Positions 18,842 to 31,144 of a stretch of DNA of 64,000 bases are shown piece by piece; within the stretch, counting starts at the first letter, position 1, and the number at the start of each line of letters is the position of its first letter. Location: assembly GCF_029626235.1 (NCBI RefSeq), contig NZ_JARUBO010000005.1:3814501-3878500 (forward strand), in the 5' to 3' direction. The notes beneath the pieces were generated by a model. The model saw nothing but the letters and a program-made list of their open reading frames with translations, did no database searches and was not told where the DNA came from. The stretch is from Micromonospora sp. WMMD1120. Its GTDB lineage: Bacteria > Actinomycetota > Actinomycetes > Mycobacteriales > Micromonosporaceae. The translations under genes and the position numbers were made by a program.

Positions 18842-19816
18842 TCAGGCCGGCACCACCGGCAGGTCCAGCACGTCGGCGATGTCGCGTCGGGGGGTCGGCC
18901 GGCCGGGCTGGCCGTACCCGACGCGCAGCACCATCTGCGGAGTGCCGAACCGCCCCAACGCCAGCCGTAGCTGCTCCCGCGCCGAGGGCACCTCGATCGG
19001 CTGGGAGAGCAACGACACGCTGAGCCCGTCGTCGGTGGCGGTGAGCAGCAGTCGTTGCAGCGCCTGCCCGGCGACCACCTGGTCCACCGCGCTGTTGCCG
19101 GCCGAGCCCAGCACGCCCACCAGGGGCTCCGGCTCGAAGTCCCGCCCGGGGGCGCGGTCGCGTCCACCGTATCCGCGGGACGGGAGGACGTCCTGGGGTT
19201 CGCTGTGCGGGCCGCCGGCCGCGACGGGCACACCGTCGGGGCTGGGCTCGTCTCGCAGCCACCGTTCCCGTTCGGCCCGGTACGCGGGGTCGCGCTCCAG
19301 CACCCGGTGCGCGCCCCGGGCGACCTCGCCGAGCGCGGAGACCGCGCTCACCCCGATCAGCAGTTCCAGCCAGCACTGCTCGCCCCGGGCCGCCTCGCCG
19401 AGCCGCCACCGCGCGTCGGCCGGCACCGGGTCGGGCCAGAACGGCAGTCGGTTGCTGAACCGGCGCGGGATGGCCGCGTACAGGCTCTGCTCGGCGGGGG
19501 TGGGCCGGCGCGGCAGGTCCGGCACCAGCCGGGCCAGCAGATCCGGCTCGGCCGGGTCGGGGCGCAGCCGCACCCGCGCCGGCAGGCCGGTCACCGCCAG
19601 CGCCATCCGCAGGTTGAACACCAGCGCGCCGCAGGCGATCCGGACCCCCCACCCGCTCGGGTCGGTGGCCGGCAGCCGGCGCGTCGGGTCGGCCAGCACC
19701 TCGATGCCGCCGTCGCGCAGCCGCAGCCGCCACGGTTGGGTGTTGTGCAGCGACGGCGCCCGCACCGCGTCGACGGCGGCGGCCCGCAGGTGCGCCGGGG
19801 TGTAGCCGGTGTCCAT
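18842..19816 (-). CDS. Acg-family nitroreductase-like protein (1)
   Basis: 324 residues. It is a divergent two-lobed nitroreductase-fold protein of the Acg type, represented in Mycobacterium tuberculosis by DosR-regulon genes such as Rv2032. The signature PSLHNTQPWR lies near residue 21, and RRFSNR and ATDDGLSVSLLSQP mark the second half. Members bind flavin or a flavin-like ligand poorly and may sequester it rather than act as true nitroreductases. The ATG at 19816 follows GAGAGGAG. A DosR-like box lies 87 bases upstream in the proper orientation. The divergent gene is the DosR-like regulator. A second family member is at 22434. Confidence 0.87.
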   Translation of the reverse strand: MDTGYTPAHLRAAAVDAVRAPSLHNTQPWRLRLRDGGIEVLADPTRRLPATDPSGWGVRIACGALVFNLRMALAVTGLPARVRLRPDPAEPDLLARLVPDLPRRPTPAEQSLYAAIPRRFSNRLPFWPDPVPADARWRLGEAARGEQCWLELLIGVSAVSALGEVARGAHRVLERDPAYRAERERWLRDEPSPDGVPVAAGGPHSEPQDVLPSRGYGGRDRAPGRDFEPEPLVGVLGSAGNSAVDQVVAGQALQRLLLTATDDGLSVSLLSQPIEVPSAREQLRLALGRFGTPQMVLRVGYGQPGRPTPRRDIADVLDLPVVPA

Positions 19817-19903
19817 GGGTGGTGCTCCTCTCCCGCTGGGCCGACCGGGTGCGGTCACCACGGCCGGTGTATCCACCCTCCGCCGTCGCCGGGAGGGCGA
19901 GCA

Positions 19904-19917
19904 GGGCCGGACGTCCC
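19904..19917 (-). promoter_or_regulatory. DosR-like box 1 (for nitroreductase 1)
   Basis: Read on the minus strand it is GGGACGTCCGGCCC, which fits GGGACSNNCGGCCC at every fixed position. It ends 87 bases before the nitroreductase start. Confidence 0.6.
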
Positions 19918-19962
19918 GAGCCGCCGGGCCGACCGCCCACGACCACCGGGTTCGTGGTGGTC

Positions 19963-19976
19963 GGGACCTTCGGCCC
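19963..19976 (+). promoter_or_regulatory. DosR-like box 2 (for the dosR-like gene)
   Basis: GGGACCTTCGGCCC on the plus strand, ending 36 bases before the start of the response regulator. It suggests autoregulation, as for DosR in mycobacteria. Confidence 0.68.
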
Positions 19977-20012
19977 GTGTGCCGGGGCCGGGGCACCGGG
20001 TAGAAACGACTG

Positions 20013-20651
20013 ATGATCCGTGTGTTCCTCCTCGACGACCACGAGGTCGTCCGCCGGGGCCTGGCCGACCTGTTGCAGAGCGGCGGCGACATCGAGGTGG
20101 TCGGCGAGTCCGGCTCCGCGCAGGAGGCGGCCCGGCGCATCCCGGCCCTGCGGCCCGACGTGGCGATCCTCGACGCCCGGCTGCCCGACGGCAACGGCAT
20201 CGACGTGTGTCGCGACGTCCGCGCCGTCGACTCGTCCATCAAGGGCCTCATCCTCACCTCCTACGAGGACGACGAGGCGCTGTTCGCGGCGATCATGGCG
20301 GGTGCCGCCGGCTACGTGCTCAAGCAGATCCGCGGCACCGACCTGGTGGACGCGGTGCGCCGGGTGTCGGCCGGGCAGTCGCTGCTCGACCCGGCGATCA
20401 CCACCCGGGTGTTGGAGCGCATCCGCAACGGCGTCGAGCAGCCGCGTGAGCTGAGGTCGCTCACCGAGCAGGAACGGCGGATCCTGGAGTACGTGGCCGA
20501 GGGGCTGACCAACCGGGAGATCGCGGCCAGGATGTTCCTGGCGGAGAAGACGGTGAAGAACTACATGTCCAGCGTGCTGGCCAAGCTGGGCCTGGAGCGC
20601 CGCACCCAGGCCGCCGTCCTGGCCACCCGCCTGCTCGGCAGGAGCACCTGA
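20013..20651 (+). CDS. devR: DosR/DevR-like response regulator (NarL/FixJ family)
   Basis: 212 residues. The receiver domain (about 1-120) has acidic pocket DD at 8-9 and phospho-acceptor Asp54 in ILDARLPDG. The LuxR-type DNA-binding domain covers about 145-210, with SLTEQERRILEYVAEGL and recognition helix region AEKTVKNYMSSVLAKLGLE. The start VFLLDDHEVVRRGLADLL and the recognition helix are nearly the same as in mycobacterial DosR, the activator of the hypoxia/dormancy regulon. It is convergent with its probable sensor kinase (8-base gap). Five matching boxes around it suggest that it controls the local genes. Orthology is judged from sequence recall, without a search. Confidence 0.92.
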   Translation: MIRVFLLDDHEVVRRGLADLLQSGGDIEVVGESGSAQEAARRIPALRPDVAILDARLPDGNGIDVCRDVRAVDSSIKGLILTSYEDDEALFAAIMAGAAGYVLKQIRGTDLVDAVRRVSAGQSLLDPAITTRVLERIRNGVEQPRELRSLTEQERRILEYVAEGLTNREIAARMFLAEKTVKNYMSSVLAKLGLERRTQAAVLATRLLGRST

Positions 20652-20659
20652 TCGTCCGC

Positions 20660-23444
<2,785 letters not shown>

Positions 23445-23515
23445 CGTGCCTCACGACGCGGTGCCGCGCGGTGGGTTGCCGCTCCATCCTGTGGCAATCC
23501 GGTGCGCTCCCGCAC

Positions 23516-23529
23516 GGGCCGTAGGTCCC
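23516..23529 (-). promoter_or_regulatory. DosR-like box 3 (for nitroreductase 2 and devS)
   Basis: On the minus strand it reads GGGACCTACGGCCC, an exact fit, 71 bases before the start at 23444. It lies in the divergent region shared with the P-type ATPase. Confidence 0.68.
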
Positions 23530-23538
23530 GCCCGTACC

Positions 23539-23552
23539 GGGTCGTACCGCCC
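23539..23552 (+). promoter_or_regulatory. Degenerate DosR-like box 5 (for the ATPase)
   Basis: GGGTCGTACCGCCC matches 12 of the 14 positions in plus orientation and ends 56 bases before the ATG at 23609. It is weaker than the others. Confidence 0.4.
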
Positions 23553-23608
23553 GGACGAATCAGGCGGTGTGGCGTCGGTGCGCGGCGGTGGGCTGCGACG
23601 ATGCGCAG

Positions 23609-25954
23609 ATGGCAGCGGAGCCGACCGAGTGCGTCGAGCCGCAGCCGGCGCGCGGCCGCGTCCGGCGGTGGTGGGCGTGGACGCCGCTGTTCGGGCTCGG
23701 TGTGGCGGTACTCGCCGGCGCCGCGCTGCGGATCGGCGGGCAGCGGACCGCCGCCGAGGCGATCTGGGCGGCCGTCACGGTGGCCGCGCTGCTCCCCGCC
23801 GCGTGGTCGATGCTGCGCTCGCTGTGGCGTCGGCACTTCGGCGTCGACGTGATCGCCGTGCTGGCCCTGGCCGGCGCGCTCGCGGTCGGGGAGTACCTGG
23901 CCGGGGCGGTCATCGCGGTGATGCTGGCGACCGGACGCTCGCTGGAGGCGTACGCGCAGCGCCGCGCCACCCGCGACCTGCGGGCGCTCCTGGCCCGAGC
24001 CCCGCGTACCGCCCGTCGACGGGGGGCGGGAGGCGGCGTCGAGGTGGTGCCGCTGGATCAGGTGGAGGCGGCGGACCGGCTGCTCGTCGGCCCCGGCGAC
24101 GCGGTGCCGGTGGACGGGACCCTGGACGAGGCGGCCACCCTGGACGAGTCGGTGGTGACGGGCGAGTCCCGGCTGCTCCAGCGGGCGGCCGGGGAGACGG
24201 TCGCCAGCGGCGTGGTGAACGCGGGGGCCGCGTTCGGGATGCGGGCGACGAGGAACGCGGCGCAGAGCACGTACGCCGGCATCGTGCGGTTGGCCGAGGA
24301 GGCGACGGCGCACAAGGCCCCGATGGTCCGGCTCGCCGACCGGTACGCCGCCGCGTTCGTACCGTTCACGCTGGTCCTGGCCGGGCTGGCCGGGCTGCTC
24401 GCCGGTGACGTCGTCCGGTCGGTCGCGGTCTTGGTGGTGGCCACCCCCTGCCCGCTGCTGCTGGCCACCCCGATCGCCATCGTCTCCGGGTTGTCCCGGG
24501 TGGCCCGGCGTGGCGTGCTGGTCCGTGACGGCGGCTCACTGGAACTGCTCGGCCGGGCCCGTACCCTGCTGGTGGACAAGACCGGCACGCTCACCGCCGG
24601 CCGCCCGCGGGCGGCCGAGACCGTCGTCGCCCCCGGCGGCGACCGGGACGAGGCGCTGCGGCTGGCGGCCTCGGTGGAACAGCTCTCCCCGCACGTGCTG
24701 GCCGCCGCGCTGGTCCGGCAGGCCCGGGAGCGCGGGCTGGCGCTGACCGAACCGGCGGACGTGACCGAGGAGCCGGGCCGGGGGGTCACCGGCCGGGTCG
24801 ACGGCCGGTTGGTCAGTGTCGGTCAGGTCACCGGCGAGCTACCGGACTGGGCGGACCGGGCGCGGGCCCGCGCCGAACTGGCCGGCTGGTCGACGGTGTG
24901 GGTCAGCGCCGAGGACGCGGTGCTCGGCGCGATCCTGCTGGAGGATCCGGTACGCCCCGACGCCCGCCGGACCGTGCGCCGGCTGCGCGCGGCGGGGCTG
25001 CGGCGGATCGTGCTGGTCACCGGCGACCGACCGACGACCGCCGCGCAGGTGGCGGCAGCCGTCGGCGTGGACGACACGCTCGCCCGCTGCACACCGCGGC
25101 AGAAGGTCGATCGGGTCCGGGCGGAGGCCGACCGGGCGGTGACGGTGATGGTCGGCGACGGGGTGAACGACGCCCCGGCGCTGGCCCAGGCGCACGTGGG
25201 CGTGGCGATGGGCGCGACCGGGGCGAGAGCCTCGGCGGACGTCGCGGACGCGGTGCTCACCGTGGACCGGCTGGACCGGCTCGCGGACGCTGTGGAGATC
25301 GCCCGGTACGCCCGCCGGATCGCCGTGCAGAGCGCCGTCGTCGGGATGGGACTGGCCGTGCTGGCGATGCTCGCCGCGGCGGCCGGCCGGCTTCCCCCGG
25401 TGGTCGGCGCGTTCCTTCAGGAGGGCATCGACGTGCTGGTGATCCTCAACGCGCTGCGGGCCCTGCGGGGTGGACTGCGCCGCCGTGCCGTCGCGCCGCG
25501 TACCCGGGAACTGCTCGCCCGTGCCGCCGAGGAGCACCGGGCGGTACGCGAGGTGCTGGCCGGGCTGCGCGACACCGCCGACCTGGTCGCCACCGACCCG
25601 GCCTCGCCGGGGTGCCTGCCGGCGGTACGGGAGACGCACCGCCGCCTGACCGAACAGGTGCTGCCGCACGAGGATGCCGAGGACCGGCAGCTCTACCCCG
25701 CGCTGACCGAGCCGTTGGGCAGCGGCGAGGCGACCTCCACGATGAGCCGCGCGCACGTGGAGATCCGTCGTCAGGTCGACCTGCTCGGCGTTCAACTCGG
25801 GCAGTCCGACGACGGTCGGCTGCGCCGAGACCAGGTCCCGGACCTGCTCGCCACCCTGTACGGGTTGGACGCCGTGCTGCGCCTGCACCTGGCGCAGGAA
25901 GAGGAGGAGTTCTTCAGCCTCGACCCGGCCGAGCCGGCGCCCGAGCGGCGCTGA
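23609..25954 (+). CDS. Heavy-metal P-type ATPase fused to a C-terminal hemerythrin (HHE) domain
   Basis: 781 residues. The P1B-type pump has the actuator motif VTGES, the membrane motif TPCPLLLATP (Cys281), phosphorylated Asp323 in DKTGTLT, and the hinge GDGVNDAPAL. There is no N-terminal HMA or CxxC metal domain. After the last membrane helices (about residue 615), residues about 635-775 form an HHE four-helix domain: EEHRAV, VLPHEDAEDRQLYP, SRAHVEI and LRLHLAQEEEEFF supply the His and acidic ligands for a diiron site. Such a domain could sense O2 or iron. The ATG at 23609 starts just before a normal pump N-terminus; GTG 23567 is possible but would overlap the box. The transported ion is unknown. 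Confidence 0.88.
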   Translation: MAAEPTECVEPQPARGRVRRWWAWTPLFGLGVAVLAGAALRIGGQRTAAEAIWAAVTVAALLPAAWSMLRSLWRRHFGVDVIAVLALAGALAVGEYLAGAVIAVMLATGRSLEAYAQRRATRDLRALLARAPRTARRRGAGGGVEVVPLDQVEAADRLLVGPGDAVPVDGTLDEAATLDESVVTGESRLLQRAAGETVASGVVNAGAAFGMRATRNAAQSTYAGIVRLAEEATAHKAPMVRLADRYAAAFVPFTLVLAGLAGLLAGDVVRSVAVLVVATPCPLLLATPIAIVSGLSRVARRGVLVRDGGSLELLGRARTLLVDKTGTLTAGRPRAAETVVAPGGDRDEALRLAASVEQLSPHVLAAALVRQARERGLALTEPADVTEEPGRGVTGRVDGRLVSVGQVTGELPDWADRARARAELAGWSTVWVSAEDAVLGAILLEDPVRPDARRTVRRLRAAGLRRIVLVTGDRPTTAAQVAAAVGVDDTLARCTPRQKVDRVRAEADRAVTVMVGDGVNDAPALAQAHVGVAMGATGARASADVADAVLTVDRLDRLADAVEIARYARRIAVQSAVVGMGLAVLAMLAAAAGRLPPVVGAFLQEGIDVLVILNALRALRGGLRRRAVAPRTRELLARAAEEHRAVREVLAGLRDTADLVATDPASPGCLPAVRETHRRLTEQVLPHEDAEDRQLYPALTEPLGSGEATSTMSRAHVEIRRQVDLLGVQLGQSDDGRLRRDQVPDLLATLYGLDAVLRLHLAQEEEEFFSLDPAEPAPERR

Positions 25955-25973
25955 CGCGGGCCGCGGTCGGCTC

Positions 25974-25992
25974 GGGACGACTCCGGCGTCCC
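25974..25992. terminator. Short hairpin between convergent genes
   Basis: GGGACG, 7 bases, CGTCCC in the 38-base gap between the ATPase and the Usp gene. It is a modest stem, listed because of its position. Confidence 0.4.
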
Positions 25993-26838
25993 TCAGCGTT
26001 CGCGGACCACCGCGACCGGGCAGTTGGCGTGTTGGATGAGCTGTTGGCTGACCGACCCGAGCAGCATGCCGGCCAGCCCACCCCGGCCGCGGCTGCCGAC
26101 CACCACCAGCCGCGCGTCGCGGCTCGCCGCGATCAGCGTCGACGCCGGGCTGCCCGCGACCAGGTCGACGGTGATGTCCAGCTCGGGAAAGGTCCGCCGC
26201 CACGGCTCCAGCGCCGCCTCGACGGACGCCCGCTCGTCGGGGACCCCGGCCGCCCCACCGGGGCCCGGTGTCCAGGCGTGCAGGACGCGGAGCGGCACCC
26301 GCCGTCGCGCTGCCCGTTCGGCAGCGAAACCGAGCGCCACCAGCGACGGGTCCGAACCGTCCACACCGACCGCCACCGGGCCGTCCGGCCCGCCGGCCGT
26401 CCCGTCGCGGACCACCACCACCGGGCAGCGCGCGTGCGCGGCGACCGACACCGCCGTGGACCCGGCCAGCAGACCACCGAACCCGCCGTGGCCCCGGCTG
26501 CCGAGCACCAGCAGGCCCGCCTCGGCCGAGCGTTCCTGCAACACCAGGGCGGGCGGGCCGTCGTACACCTCGCCGGTGACCGTCAGGCCCGGGTTCGCGG
26601 CGGCGGCGTCGGCCGCCGCGCCGCGGACCAGGTCGTCGACCTGACGGCGGGCGGTGTCGTCCGGCCACACGCCGGGGGCCACGCCGGGACCGACCCAGCC
26701 GGCCACTGTCAGCCATTCGAAGACGTACGCCAGCCGCACCGGTTGTCCGCTGTGCCGGGCCTCCTCCAGCGCCCAGTTCAGGGCCACCGAGGCGTCGGTG
26801 GAGCCGTCGTAGCCGACCAGGATCTCCGCGTCGCGCAC
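25993..26838 (-). CDS. Universal stress protein, tandem Usp domains (1)
   Basis: 281 residues with two Usp domains of about 140 residues. Each ends in an ATP-binding loop of the GxxGxGG type: LGSRGHGGFGGLLAGS and VGSRGRGGLAGMLLGS. Tandem Usp proteins of this sort are prominent members of the mycobacterial DosR regulon. GTG at 26838 follows AAGGAGG and lies 10 bases after the phosphoketolase stop, so it is the second gene of that operon, under DosR-like box 4. Confidence 0.9.
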   Translation of the reverse strand: MRDAEILVGYDGSTDASVALNWALEEARHSGQPVRLAYVFEWLTVAGWVGPGVAPGVWPDDTARRQVDDLVRGAAADAAAANPGLTVTGEVYDGPPALVLQERSAEAGLLVLGSRGHGGFGGLLAGSTAVSVAAHARCPVVVVRDGTAGGPDGPVAVGVDGSDPSLVALGFAAERAARRRVPLRVLHAWTPGPGGAAGVPDERASVEAALEPWRRTFPELDITVDLVAGSPASTLIAASRDARLVVVGSRGRGGLAGMLLGSVSQQLIQHANCPVAVVRER

Positions 26839-26848
26839 GGGTCCTCCT

Positions 26849-29242
26849 TCAGGGGTTGGTGGGATCGGTCTCGCGGACCCAGCGCCACTCCGCGACCCGG
26901 GGGTCGTCCTCGCCGTACTGGCGGGTGTAGTCGCGGGCCGCCTGCCGGGCGTCGGCCATCTGCTGGCGCAGGTGCGCGGCGCGGGCGGCCAGCCCGGGCA
27001 CCCGGTCGATGACGTCGATGACCAGGTGGAAGCGGTCCAGGTCGTTGAGCATCACCATGTCGAAGGGCGTGGTCGTGGTGCCCTCCTCCTTGTAGCCGCG
27101 CACGTGCAGGTTCTCGTGGTTGGTACGGCGGTAGGTGAGCCGGTGGATCAGCCACGGGTAGCCGTGGTAGGCGAAGATGACCGGGCGGTCCTTGGTGAAG
27201 ATGGTGTCGAACTCGTTGTCGGTCAGGCCGTGCGGGTGCTCGGTGTCCGGCTGGAGTCGCATCAGGTCGACAACGTTCACCAGTCGCACGGTCAGCTCCG
27301 GCAGGTGCCGGCGCAGCAGGTCGGCGGCGGCCAGCGTCTCCAGGGTGGGTACGTCTCCGCAGCAGGCGAGCACGACGTCCGGTTCGTTGCCGGCGTCGTT
27401 GCTGGCCCACTCCCAGATGCCCAGACCGCGCCGGGTGTGTTGGATCGCCTCGGTCATGGTCAGCCAGTTCGGCGCCGGTTGCTTACCGGCCACCACCACG
27501 TTGATGTAGTGCCGGCTGCGCAGGCAGTGGTCCATGGTGGCGAGCAGCGTGTTGGCGTCCGGCGGCAGGTAGACCCGGACCACCTCGGCCTTCTTGTTCA
27601 CCACGTGGTCGATGAAGCCCGGGTCCTGGTGCGAGAAGCCGTTGTGGTCCTGGCGCCAGACGTGGCTGGACAGCAGGTAGTTCAGCGAGGCGATCGGCTG
27701 TCGCCAGGGGATGGCCCGGGTCACCTTCAGCCACTTGGCGTGCTGGTTGACCATCGAGTCGACGATGTGGATGAAGGCCTCGTAGCTGGTGAACACACCG
27801 TGCCGGCCGGTCAGTAGGTAGCCCTCCAGCCAGCCCTGACACAGGTGCTCGGAGAGCACCTCCAGCACCCGGCCGTCGGGGGAGAGGTGGTCGTCGCCGG
27901 GAACCGTGGCGGCCACCCAGGCCCGGTCGGTCACCTCGAAGGCGGCGCCCAGCCGGTTGGACGTCACCTCGTCCGGCCCGAACAGTCGGAACGTCTGCGG
28001 GTTGGCGCTGATGACGTCGCGGATCCACGGCCCGAGCGCCCCGGTCGCGCCCACCATCGGCTGGCCGGGCTCGGGGACCTCCACCGCGTAGTCACGGAAG
28101 TCCGGCAGGGTCAGGTCGCGTAACACCACGCCGCCGTTGGTGACCGGGTTGGCGCTCATCCGGCGGTCCCCACGCGGGGGCAGCGTGAGCAGTTCGTCGA
28201 CCGGCGCGCCGGTCACGTCGAACAGCTCCTCCGGCCGGTAGCTGCGCAGCCAGTGTTCCAGCTCGGCCAGGTGCGCCGGATTGTCGCGGACCCCGGACAG
28301 CGGCACCTGGTGGGCGCGGTAGGTGCCCTCCACCTGGGCGCCGTCGACGTCGCGCGGACCGGTCCAGCCCTTCGGCGTACGCAGGACGATCATCGGCCAG
28401 CGGGGACGTTCGACGGCGCCGCCGGAGCGCACCCCGCGCTGGATCGACGCGATCTCGTCCAGCGCCCGGTCCATCGTGGCGGCGAGCGCGCGGTGCACCT
28501 GCGGCGGGTCGTCGCCGGCCACCACGTACGGCTGGTAACCCGACCCGCGCAGCAGGTCGAGCAGGTCGGTCTCGGGGATCCGGGACAGCACGGTCGGGTT
28601 GGCGATCTTGTAGCCGTTGAGGTGCAGGATCGGCAGCACCGCGCCGTCGCGGGCCGGGTTGAGGAACACGTTGGAGAGCCAGCTACCGGCCAGCGGCCCG
28701 GTCTCCGCCTCACCGTCGCCGATCACGCAGGCCACCACCAGGTCCGGGTTGTCGAACGCGGCGCCGTAGGCGTGGCTCAGCGCGTACCCCAGCTCCCCGC
28801 CCTCGTGGATCGAGCCCGGCACGTCCGCCGCGACGTGGCTGGGGATGCCACCCGGGAAGGAGAACTGGCGGAACAGCCTGGCCATGCCGACCTCGTCGCG
28901 CCCCACGTCGTGGTAGCGCTCCGACCAGGTGCCCTCCAGCCAGGTGTTGGCCACGATCGCTGGGCCGCCGTGGCCGGGCCCGGTGACCAGCATGGCGTTC
29001 AGGTCGCGCGCCACGATCACGCGGTTCAGGTGGGCGTAGATCAGGTTGAGCCCGGGGCTGGTGCCCCAGTGCCCGAGCAGCCGCGGCTTGATGTCGTCGG
29101 GGGTCAGCGGGTCGCGCAGCAGCGGGTTGTCCAGCAGGTAGATCTGCCCGACGGTCAGGTAGTTCGCGGCGCGCCAGTAGGCGTCCAGCCGGCGCAGCTC
29201 GTCGTCGGTGAGGGCGTGGCGTACGTCGGGAGCGGTATCCAT
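26849..29242 (-). CDS. xfp: Phosphoketolase (xylulose-5-phosphate/fructose-6-phosphate)
   Basis: 797 residues, full length for the family. The thiamine-diphosphate enzyme splits xylulose-5-P or fructose-6-P to acetyl-phosphate plus a triose or tetrose phosphate. Visible signatures are [20 protein letters not shown] near residue 55, [23 protein letters not shown] and the TPP motif [14 protein letters not shown]. It can make acetyl-phosphate and ATP without oxygen, which fits its place in a hypoxia-type island. ATG 29242 follows GAGAGG. A DosR-like box lies 71 bases upstream, inside the 3' end of the preceding Usp gene. Usp (1) follows as the second gene of the operon. Confidence 0.95.
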
Positions 29243-29310
29243 CAGGCTGCCTCTCGCGGTTGGGAGTGGGGCGTCCGGTGTCCAGCCTGGCCGCCGCGGA
29301 CGCCCTCGGG

Positions 29311-30171
29311 TCAGGGCCGTTGGTCCCTCGACGAGGAGGGCTGCGACCCGGTCAGTGGCATCGTGGCGAGACCGCGGACGACGACCACCGGCGCCGGGGA
29401 GTGGTAGAGCAGGGATTGGGCGACCGCGCCCAGCATGGCCCGGCCGGGTTCGTCACCGCGGGCGGCGACGAGCGCCAGCTGCGCGGCGCGGGACGTGTCG
29501 ACGAGCACGGCGCCGGGGTCGCCGCGTACCACGCGACACTCGGTCGGCACCCCGCCGTGCCGGTCGGTGTGCTGGGCCAGGGCCGCGCCGAACTGCTCGG
29601 CGACCGCGTCGGTGTCCTCGTCGTCCTCGACGACGCGAAGCGCCAGCAGGCGGGCGTCCCGACCGGCGGCACAGCGCAGCGCCCATCGCAGGGCGAGGTG
29701 GGAGCTGGACGAGCCGTCCACGCCGACCAGCACCGGGCCGTCCGGCGGCGGCTCGCGCCGGACCACCAGCAGGGGGCAGCCGGCCCGGGCGGCCAACTGC
29801 ACGGCCGGCGTGTCGGCCGGGACGCACTGGCCGCTGCCGGCGATGCCGCTGTCACCGACGGCCAGCAGGAAGGCGCTCTCCGAGCGGCGGATGAGGGTGG
29901 GCAGCATGGCGCCCGCGACGATCTCGCCGCGGACGGTCAGCCCCGGCTCCGCCTGGTGCGCGCGTTGGGCGGCCTGGGTGATCAGTTTCTCGGCCTGGTC
30001 GCGTGGAGCGGCGACGGTGTCGGCGGAGAAGGCGGCGTGCCAGTCGAAGGTGTGCAGCAGGTGCAGCGGTCGGCCGTGTCCGGCGGCCTCCCGCGCGGCG
30101 TGGTCGACGATCGGGAGGTCGAGGTCCGACCCGAGGCCGACCAGCACCGCGGCGTCGGCGGGTGCGGCCAT
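29311..30171 (-). CDS. Universal stress protein, tandem Usp domains (2)
   Basis: 286 residues. The first Usp domain is degenerate: its ATP loop reads [12 protein letters not shown] and lacks the glycine pattern. The second has [19 protein letters not shown] in the corresponding place and also departs from the ATP-binding consensus, so nucleotide binding is doubtful. ATG 30171 follows GGAGGTGATATC. The final codons overlap DosR-like box 4, which serves the next gene. No box of its own is evident, only a GGGAC half about 40 bases upstream. Confidence 0.85.
29314..29327 (-). promoter_or_regulatory. DosR-like box 4 (for phosphoketolase operon)
   Basis: GGGACCAACGGCCC on the minus strand, an exact fit, 71 bases before the phosphoketolase start. 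It is embedded in the last codons of the upstream Usp gene. Confidence 0.65.
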
Positions 30172-30282
30172 CCGATATCACCTCCCGGGCGTCGCGCCCG
30201 GCACGACCAAGCTGTCCCTGACCGAGCGTAGTCGGATGAGCACGGTGGCGGAGCCGGATCGAGCGGCTGCGTCGCCCACACC

Positions 30283-30328
30283 GTCAACCAGGGTTGACAC
30301 GGTCGGCACTGTCAACGTATGTTGACAG
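30283..30328 (+). promoter_or_regulatory. Promoter covered by two identical-pattern operators
   Basis: Two palindromes share GTCAAC-N4-GTTGAC, at 30283-30298 and 30311-30326; the second extends to CTGTCAAC-GTAT-GTTGACAG (30309-30328). The first contains the -35 TTGACA (30294-30299). The second contains the -10 TATGTT (30318-30323), 18 bases further on. Transcription would begin at about 30330, the A of the ATG, so the mRNA is probably leaderless. A repressor binding both sites would block both promoter elements. Confidence 0.7.
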
Positions 30329-30329
30329 C

Positions 30330-30566
30330 ATGAGTCAGGCGACCGAACTCGCGGCGGCAGCCGGCAGCACCGACCCCCGGGTCGGGCTGCGCGCCGTCCG
30401 CGCGCTGCGCCGGCTGCTCGAGCGGCTCGAGGTGGTCCAGGTGGACAACGCCCGTCGACAGGGCTGGTCCTGGCAGGAGATCGCCGACGCGCTCGAGGTC
30501 AGCCGGCAGGCGGTGCACAAGAAGCACGCCGGGCGACCGGCGGTCAACACATCCTGGGAGGCGTGA
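30330..30566 (+). CDS. Small helix-turn-helix protein
   Basis: 78 residues with a central HTH (SWQEIADALEVSRQAVHKKH, about residues 48-67) and a helical N-terminal part. Proteins of this type sit next to single Clp N-domain genes in actinomycetes. It most likely represses its own operon through the paired GTCAAC-N4-GTTGAC sites. There is no Shine-Dalgarno sequence, and the expected transcription start coincides with the ATG. The stop and the next ATG overlap (TGATG). Confidence 0.82.
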   Translation: MSQATELAAAAGSTDPRVGLRAVRALRRLLERLEVVQVDNARRQGWSWQEIADALEVSRQAVHKKHAGRPAVNTSWEA

Positions 30567-31144
30567 TGTTCGAACGGTTCACCGACCGGGCGCGCGACGT
30601 GGTGCGGCGGGCGCTGGAGGAGGCGCGGGCCGAGGGTCAACGGCCCGTCGGCACCGAGCACCTGCTGCTCGCCCTCCTCGACGACGATGCCGGCCTGGCC
30701 AGCCGGGTGCTCGCCGACGCCGGTGTGCGCGCCGACGACCTGCGCGAACGCGTCCGCGCGCACACCGCCACCGGCGGCGCCGGTCTCGGCGACGCCGACG
30801 CGGCGGCCCTCCGGGAGATCGGCATCGACCTGGCCGCCATCGTGGCCCGCATCGAGCAGTCCTTCGGCCCGGACGCGCTGCGCGAGGCGGTGCCGGCGCC
30901 CCGCCGTCGCTGGGGGCGCAAGCGCTACCTCGGCACCCCGTTCTCGCCCCGCTCGAAGAAGGCGCTGGAGTTGTCCCTGCGGGAGGCGTTGCGCCTGCGC
31001 CACAGGCACATCGGCACCGAGCACATCCTGCTCGGGGTGCTGCGGGAGGGCGGCGGGCTGGGCGCGTTGGTGCTCACCGAGTCCGGCGTCGACCTCGACG
31101 ACCTGCGCCGGCGGGTGGAGGCGGCGCTGCGTACGGCGGCGTGA
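30566..31144 (+). CDS. Clp N-terminal domain protein (ClpC adaptor-like)
   Basis: 192 residues with two Clp-N repeats: FTDRARDVVRRALEEAR with GTEHLLLALL in the first half, and FSPRSKKALELSLREAL with GTEHILLGVL in the second. No ATPase module follows, unlike ClpC or ClpB. Such stand-alone Clp-N proteins may act as adaptors or anti-adaptors or bind misfolded proteins. The arginine-rich linker RRRWGRKRYLG separates a degenerate middle part. The ATG overlaps the HTH gene's stop; GTG 30563 is an alternative start. Confidence 0.88.
   Translation: MFERFTDRARDVVRRALEEARAEGQRPVGTEHLLLALLDDDAGLASRVLADAGVRADDLRERVRAHTATGGAGLGDADAAALREIGIDLAAIVARIEQSFGPDALREAVPAPRRRWGRKRYLGTPFSPRSKKALELSLREALRLRHRHIGTEHILLGVLREGGGLGALVLTESGVDLDDLRRRVEAALRTAA

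Follow-up and report, generated by a model that had tools for sequence, protein, structure and literature searches.

A probable DosR/OsdR-type hypoxia and redox regulon and its predicted promoter boxes in Micromonospora

The stretch of DNA considered here, referred to as the window, comprises 64,000 nucleotides of the 7.15-Mb genome of Micromonospora sp. WMMD1120 (G000). Between positions 18842 and 30171 it holds a cluster of genes which encode, in this order, an Acg-family oxidoreductase (ntr1, minus strand), a response regulator (dosR, plus), a kinase (dosS, minus), a second Acg-family oxidoreductase (ntr2, minus), a P-type ATPase (plus), a universal stress protein (Usp, minus), a phosphoketolase (xfp, minus) and a further Usp (minus). 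A preliminary description, made from the letters alone, had given the genes these names and had seen in them a self-contained DosR-type dormancy regulon with five oriented binding boxes. The names are borne out by domain and family matches, with both Acg genes above the curated cut-off; the Usp genes are likewise present, although they are not in tandem as had been stated, since they flank xfp rather than adjoin one another. The cluster is best interpreted as a hypoxia and redox regulon of the DosR/OsdR type, here in Micromonospora, a reading to which a probability of roughly 0.87 can be attached.

The regulator is 58% identical to DosR of Mycobacterium tuberculosis over 207 residues. It is a NarL-type response regulator in which D54, T82, K104, K179, K182 and N183 are the residues found at those positions in DosR, and the DosR recognition helix is kept; Lys179 and Asn183 are presumably functional in DosR. 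Asp54 and Lys182 are named as functional DosR residues in published abstracts. The closest named relatives of the regulator, at 97%, are those of M. arida, M. parva and M. inaquosa. The kinase has the domain order GAF-GAF-HisKA_3 plus HATPase, and the best match of its first GAF domain (GAF1) is chain 2vzw (E 7e-53), which we take to be DosT, followed by chains named DevS. His150 lies within an HPPM motif common to the DosS/DosT GAF structures and is presumably the heme ligand, so that the protein has the predicted make-up of a tandem-GAF kinase with the GAF1 histidine. It carries Gly, as does 2vzw, where the wild-type DosS/DevS chain 2w3d has Glu; we take this Gly to be a DosT feature. The proposal of a DosR/DevR-type two-component system is upheld by both partners.

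The motif GGGACSNNCGGCCC has four exact matches in the window, at 19904 (minus), 19963 (plus), 23516 (minus) and 29314 (minus), precisely where the preliminary description had placed them. Only 0.29 would be expected, and none of 100 shuffled sequences reached four. A fifth copy, at 23539 (plus), had been put forward as a 12-of-14 version; its two mismatches are confirmed, but 125 matches would be expected in the window at this tolerance and 91 are present, so that the count by itself lends it no significance. Genome-wide there are 16 exact matches, of which 4 lie in the cluster, and any 4 of 16 random sites fell inside 9.4 kb in a fraction of 2e-5 of 200,000 simulations. This concentration is the outstanding feature of the motif and the sole one of its kind in the strain. 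It might be objected that GC-rich palindromes will arise by chance in a GC-rich genome, as with two mismatches allowed the motif is found less often in the window than in shuffles, and the exact one is rarer genome-wide than its reversed control (16 versus 58). The clustering of the exact boxes speaks against this, as does the conservation of the dosR, ntr1 and xfp footprints and, less strongly, that of ntr2, and the probability left to chance is close to nil. No weight is given to a ranking of sites in the window by position weight matrix, which is circular because the matrix was derived from the orthologous boxes.

The motif had been described as resembling, without being identical to, the boxes known from other actinomycetes, which understates the likeness. 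The OsdR consensus of Streptomyces coelicolor is given as AGGGCCGATCGGCCCT, and the sites listed with it include AGGGACCTTCGGCCCC (SCO0216 and SCO0167) and CGGGACCTTCGGCCCT (the SCO5978/SCO5979 intergenic region, bound in an electrophoretic mobility shift assay) (PMC5069765). The box at 19963, GGGACCTTCGGCCC, is letter-identical to the core of the listed sites before SCO0216 narG2, SCO0167 usp and SCO5979 (PMC5069765). In Rhodococcus equi, the DosR/DevR consensus appears in a table caption as NNNGGGHCNWWNGNCCCBNN (PMC2947987). In the form GGGHCNWWNGNCCC / GGGHCNWWNGNCCCB, it is matched by three of the four boxes and by nothing else in the window, the box at 19904 departing from it at one position of the WW core. 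Because the core at 19963 is identical to OsdR sites and three boxes fit the DosR consensus, the motif is the known box and not merely a similar one. Followed by TG, the published form occurs at two places in the genome, one of them the xfp box, compared with one for the control.

Of 61 genomes sampled in the genus, 54 have an orthologue of the regulator (89-97% identity, or the gene itself); the seven without one are fragmented, six into 370 to 890 contigs and the other into about 130. Conservation was followed in 41 loci, namely the window and 40 fetched from the 53 relatives with a dosR orthologue. All seven non-ATPase genes are found at 50% identity or more in 36 of these. A box with at most two mismatches precedes dosR in 41/41 loci, as would suit autoregulation, ntr1 in 40/40 and xfp in 37/37 of the promoters scored, and the orientation of the boxes toward their genes, already noted in the preliminary description, is conserved in the genus. 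Scoring excluded one ntr1 below 60% identity (L088) and 20 of 38 ntr2 promoters. The published consensus GGGHCNWWNGNCCCB itself is present before dosR in 41/41 scored loci, xfp in 33/37, ntr1 in 3/40 and ntr2 in 1/18. Box footprints are conserved while the sequence around them drifts.

The association of box and regulator extends to the family. In a sample of 121 genomes, the 100 with a dosR match (E <= 1e-60) contain 251 copies of GGGACCWWCGGCCC compared with 134 of the reversed control, and the 21 without a match (the 21st, G166, being inferred) contain 17 compared with 33. Among 80 named loci, which extend to Nocardioides and Frankia, dosR has a box (one mismatch at most) within 200 nt in 43, compared with 2 of 160 control blocks taken from the gene itself; the loci with a box are mostly Micromonosporaceae, and of six Frankia loci only L286 has such a box, abutting the start codon. 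Since half-sites of NarL/LuxR-family regulators can be similar, and a first look at the genome of the strain gives 113 candidate NarL-type regulators, the boxes could be bound mainly by another member of that family, the DosR-like neighbour being incidental. A box directly before dosR in every one of the 41 loci, an excess of the motif that tracks the presence of a dosR match, DNA-contact residues that are those of DosR, and the binding by OsdR of regions holding the same sequence together make this a very improbable account.

Positions of the genes and of the predicted promoter elements are collected in Table 1.

Table 1. Genes and predicted promoter elements of the cluster, in window coordinates
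Feature	Position	Strand	Remarks
ntr1, Acg-family (Rv3131-like) FMN oxidoreductase	18842..19816	-	NF047509 305 bits, cut-off 199
-10-like hexamer GAGGGT of ntr1	19875..19880	-	23 nt after box; position conserved across the genus, hexamer itself weak
Primary box of ntr1, GGGACGTCCGGCCC	19904..19917	-	up to 2 mismatches in all 40 scored loci
Weak partner box of ntr1, TGGGCGGTCGGCCC	19926..19939	-	22 bp upstream; G at -22/-21 and C at -11/-10 in 87-92% of 40 loci
Primary, predicted autoregulatory box of dosR, GGGACCTTCGGCCC	19963..19976	+	up to 2 mismatches in all 41 loci; exact to GGGACCNNCGGCCC in 27
-10-like hexamer TAGAAA of dosR	20001..20006	+	24 nt after box, 6 nt before ATG
dosR, DosR/OsdR-type response regulator	20013..20651	+	LuxR-type
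dosS, DosS/DosT-type kinase	20660..22393	-	two GAF domains, HisKA_3, HATPase
ntr2, second Acg-family FMN oxidoreductase	22434..23444	-	NF047509 281 bits, cut-off 199; directly upstream of dosS, same strand
-10-like hexamer CAGGAT of ntr2-dosS unit	23486..23491	-	24 nt after box
Primary box of ntr2-dosS, GGGACCTACGGCCC	23516..23529	-	exact; up to 2 mismatches at 18/38 ntr2 promoters
Partner box of ntr2-dosS, GGGCGGTACGACCC on this strand	23539..23552	-	23 bp upstream; 7/8 key positions
P1B-5-like heavy-metal ATPase, C-terminal hemerythrin domain	23609..25954	+	alternative GTG start at 23567
Double-domain universal stress protein	25993..26838	-	PF00582, two stretches; 10 bp downstream of xfp, same strand
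xfp, phosphoketolase Xfp	26849..29242	-	domain/family match
-10-like hexamer CAGGCT of xfp	29284..29289	-	24 nt after box
Primary box of xfp, GGGACCAACGGCCC	29314..29327	-	overlaps last codons of Usp ORF 29311-30171; up to 2 mismatches in all 37 scored loci
Partner position of xfp, CGGGTCGCAGCCCT	29337..29350	-	degenerate in this strain, better in relatives
Second double-domain universal stress protein	29311..30171	-	3' end of ORF carries xfp box 29314

The preliminary description had regarded an agreement in the distance from box to start codon, along with that in sequence and orientation, as hard to explain by chance. The distances it gave (87, 36, 71, 71 and 56 bases) follow from the coordinates, but as a conserved quantity the box-to-start distance was rejected, because in the scored loci it ranges from 54 to 134 for ntr1, 35 to 37 for dosR, 55 to 72 for ntr2 and 68 to 100 for xfp. 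Instead, what all four promoters share is the distance of 22-25 nt from the box to a -10-like hexamer. At that spacing the mean of the best TA...T score lies between 1.94 and 2.00 out of 3 for each of the four promoters, and at non-overlapping spacings it is at most 1.25, dosR excepted. As only 6 nt separate the hexamer from the ATG of dosR, its mRNA is predicted to be leaderless. Upstream of ntr1, ntr2 and xfp, a partner dyad lies 22-23 bp from the primary box, with means of 6.8, 6.7 and 6.8 of 8 key positions, respectively, compared with 4.0-4.1 in shuffled flanks. Paired, close-packed boxes with the proximal one over the -35 region are described for DevR of M. tuberculosis (PMC3029386). The same layout, with the proximal box over the predicted -35, is seen here at ntr1, ntr2 and xfp and is absent at dosR. 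Directly upstream of the dosR box, at 19940-19962, there is also an inverted repeat, CGACCAC...GTGGTCG, which is not apparent by eye in the aligned relatives.

The pairing bears on the copy at 23539, which had been assigned to the ATPase. It lies on the plus strand 56 nt before the ATPase ATG, with two mismatches compared with three on the minus strand, and could be taken to complete a set of five independent boxes, one for each gene, the ATPase included. Its spacing of 23 bp from 23516 is that of the other paired promoters, however, its distance to the ATPase start varies, and in all six scored relatives that lack the ATPase gene or retain a fragment of it the site persists at 6-8 of 8 key positions (eight further loci without a full ATPase gene were left unscored, the ntr2 box or gene being missing). 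Five independent boxes are therefore unlikely; 23539 was rejected as an ATPase box and is instead the partner of 23516, which leaves the ATPase without a convincing box of its own. Neither is one seen for the Usp genes: the second (29311-30171) has no box with up to one mismatch in the 200 nt before it, and that at 25993-26838 has no exact box of its own, exact boxes only being sought there.

A number of observations weigh against the assignment to DosR/OsdR. No NCBIfam model names the regulator DosR, the best being MadR at 164 bits against a cut-off of 300. Conservation is poor for the ntr2 box, no copy with up to two mismatches being present in the stretch searched at 20 of 38 ntr2 promoters, and 37 of the 80 named loci have no dosR box at the threshold applied; moreover, boxes in related strains are not independent of one another. 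The -10-like hexamers are weak, GAGGGT of ntr1 above all, dosR has a second TA...T peak of up to 1.95 at a spacing of 33-36, and the -10 analysis is descriptive, in that spacings were scanned and the peak read off afterwards. At dosR there is no partner site (3.7 of 8, compared with 4.0 when shuffled). The relaxed forms of the motif, finally, are in no genome-wide excess over the reversed control: the symmetrical, stricter form GGGMCSWWSGKCCC occurs at 7 places against 6 (3 of the 7 in the cluster), and GGGACCWWCGGCCCTG with up to two mismatches at 24 against 52 (4 of the 24 in the cluster). Nine of the 12 exact matches outside the cluster sit in called reading frames and are background-like. 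As neither exact nor relaxed counts rise above the control and the outside matches are mostly within reading frames, the strain shows no enrichment of the motif across its genome. The preliminary description had proposed a genome scan for hits concentrated upstream of redox genes, and no such gathering of exact matches is found, given the nine intragenic ones, two intergenic ones without further support (L001 and L007) and one that is half of a pair before an adhE-type gene (L016).

That pair indicates that the regulon is not fully self-contained, as do targets in relatives. At G000:C5:6783620-6783657, 2.9 Mb from the cluster, there is a pair of boxes with a spacing of 22 bp, in which the exact copy points in the opposite direction. 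Downstream of the nearer box come TACGTT, at 24 nt, and a gene encoding aldehyde and iron-alcohol dehydrogenase domains (AdhE type), which adjoins a Usp gene. Although TATCGC stands 24 nt from the exact match L007, ahead of an aminotransferase gene, that candidate has no partner and was set aside. Near G000:C5:3302810 (L173), a near-match, AGGACCAACGACCCTG, followed by TAGCCT, stands 34 nt before a sigma-factor-like gene and is a possible extra target.

In relatives, 44 sites outside the dosR locus, from 40 stretches chosen by hand and mostly consisting of matches followed by TG, precede genes for cNMP-binding (Crp-type) proteins (9), flavohemoglobin (6), Hsp20 (5), phosphoketolase (5; these on contigs without a dosR match) and Usp-like proteins (3), ten singletons, and, in six cases, no reading frame. 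The search pattern ends in NG and therefore misses the dosR box GGCCCGTG. For the Crp-type, flavohemoglobin and Hsp20 groups one member each was scanned and the rest assigned by BLAST similarity, while the phosphoketolase and Usp-like labels were given by eye. Among the singletons are pyridoxamine-oxidase-like, CBS-domain and NarK-like genes; the NarK-like protein (191 of 312 bits) and the flavohemoprotein (369 of 432) fall below their NCBIfam cut-offs, and a nitrate reductase alpha chain (L156) was named by eye only. These outside targets resemble known DosR/OsdR targets, the list for OsdR holding Crp-like, PPOX, nitrate transporter, NarG and Usp genes and a hemerythrin-domain protein (PMC5069765). 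Of the typical targets, both Acg genes are boxed in the window, the Usp genes of the cluster are unboxed, and Hsp20, Usp-like and NarK-like genes are boxed in relatives. In the strain itself, relatives of the flavohemoglobin are only 28-39% identical, and two Hsp20 loci have no box scoring above 9. One site in a relative (L150, G046:C1:4435300-4439400) stands before an MBL-fold-hydrolase-like gene and is followed by a palindrome, ATACCCCCGGGGGTAT, in which we see a presumed likeness to a CsoR-type operator.

The ATPase combines a P1B pump core with a C-terminal hemerythrin domain in which HxxxE and HxE motifs are present; a TPC motif and a final HxxxxE, rather than HxxxxD, were read by eye. 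It aligns over more than 500 amino acids in 27 of the 41 loci. P1B-5 ATPases with a hemerythrin-like domain have been described with the ligand motifs H-HxxxE-HxE-HxxxxD, and the architecture, HxxxE and HxE of the proteins from Acidothermus cellulolyticus and Sinorhizobium meliloti are shared by the one in the window (PMC9388753). Unlike those described in that paper, the latter apparently ends in HxxxxE and sits in a DosR-type cluster, and its function is a prediction.

Beyond the second Usp gene, two tandem operators, CGTCAAC-N4-GTTGACA and TGTCAAC-N4-GTTGACA, lie 28 bp apart at 30282-30327, just before a small reading frame at 30331 (helix-turn-helix-like by eye) and a Clp N-domain-like one at 30563-31144, divergent from usp. 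Eight of 35 loci, counting the window, carry GTCAAC-N4-GTTGAC upstream of usp.

Among the closest known systems is OsdK/OsdR of S. coelicolor (SCO0203/SCO0204), with which autoregulation, predicted here, and clustered Usp and nitroreductase targets are common ground; whereas osdR-osdK form one operon, regulator and kinase genes in Micromonospora are convergent and separately boxed (PMC5069765). In the main text of that paper neither ‘ketolase’ nor ‘atpase’ occurs as the start of a word. With DosR/DevR-DosS/DosT of M. tuberculosis the cluster shares the regulator, a GAF kinase, the box consensus, paired boxes at -35, and Acg-family and Usp genes, the link between Acg and Rv3131 resting on an NCBIfam name. 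It differs in having one kinase in the cluster, in gene order and in part of its genes (xfp and the hemerythrin ATPase). Among the papers listed in literature searches, none has a title or an opening of its abstract that deals with DosR/OsdR in Micromonospora. The genome paper of R. equi mentions both Xfp and DosR boxes, in separate passages, and may connect the two (PMC2947987).

On the DosR/OsdR interpretation, the kinase would sense the loss of oxygen, or NO or CO, through its GAF heme and phosphorylate the regulator at Asp54. A dimer of the phosphorylated regulator would then occupy GGGACC-NN-CGGCCC, at or just upstream of -35 and about 24 nt before the -10 region, and at ntr1, ntr2-dosS and xfp a second dimer would bind the weaker site 22-23 bp further upstream. 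These dimers would recruit RNA polymerase, a single box serving at dosR, and ntr1, dosR, ntr2-dosS and xfp would be switched on together with the adhE-type gene elsewhere. Because box 23516 stands before ntr2, with the kinase gene following it, and box 19963 stands before the regulator gene, both arms are proposed to be self-amplifying. Box identity, conservation, spacing, pairing and domain content are read from the sequence. What we infer is that the kinase binds heme and responds to such a signal, that it passes phosphate to the regulator, that the regulator binds the boxes and activates rather than represses, and where operons and transcription starts lie.

The presence of Xfp and of the AdhE-type gene suggests that fermentation may serve as an overflow route when oxygen is short. 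A bolder and rather doubtful extension is that DosR control has moved away from nitrate respiration and dormancy toward fermentation and metal handling, with Xfp and AdhE forming an overflow through acetyl-phosphate and acetyl-CoA to ethanol, the split units providing a double positive feedback that could be bistable, and the hemerythrin-tailed pump acting as a second oxygen sensor.

The cluster is real and conserved, and of a kind already known from Streptomyces and Mycobacterium; what it adds in particular is a map of its promoters and, among the targets, a phosphoketolase and an AdhE-type gene. The predicted DosR/OsdR regulon is thereby extended to Micromonospora with a promoter map at the level of single bases, consisting of the box, its partner at 22-23 bp and a -10 some 24 nt from the box. 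Candidate targets listed for the genus lead to testable predictions in soil bacteria known for their antibiotics, and a phosphoketolase and an AdhE-type gene are placed under what is predicted to be an oxygen switch.

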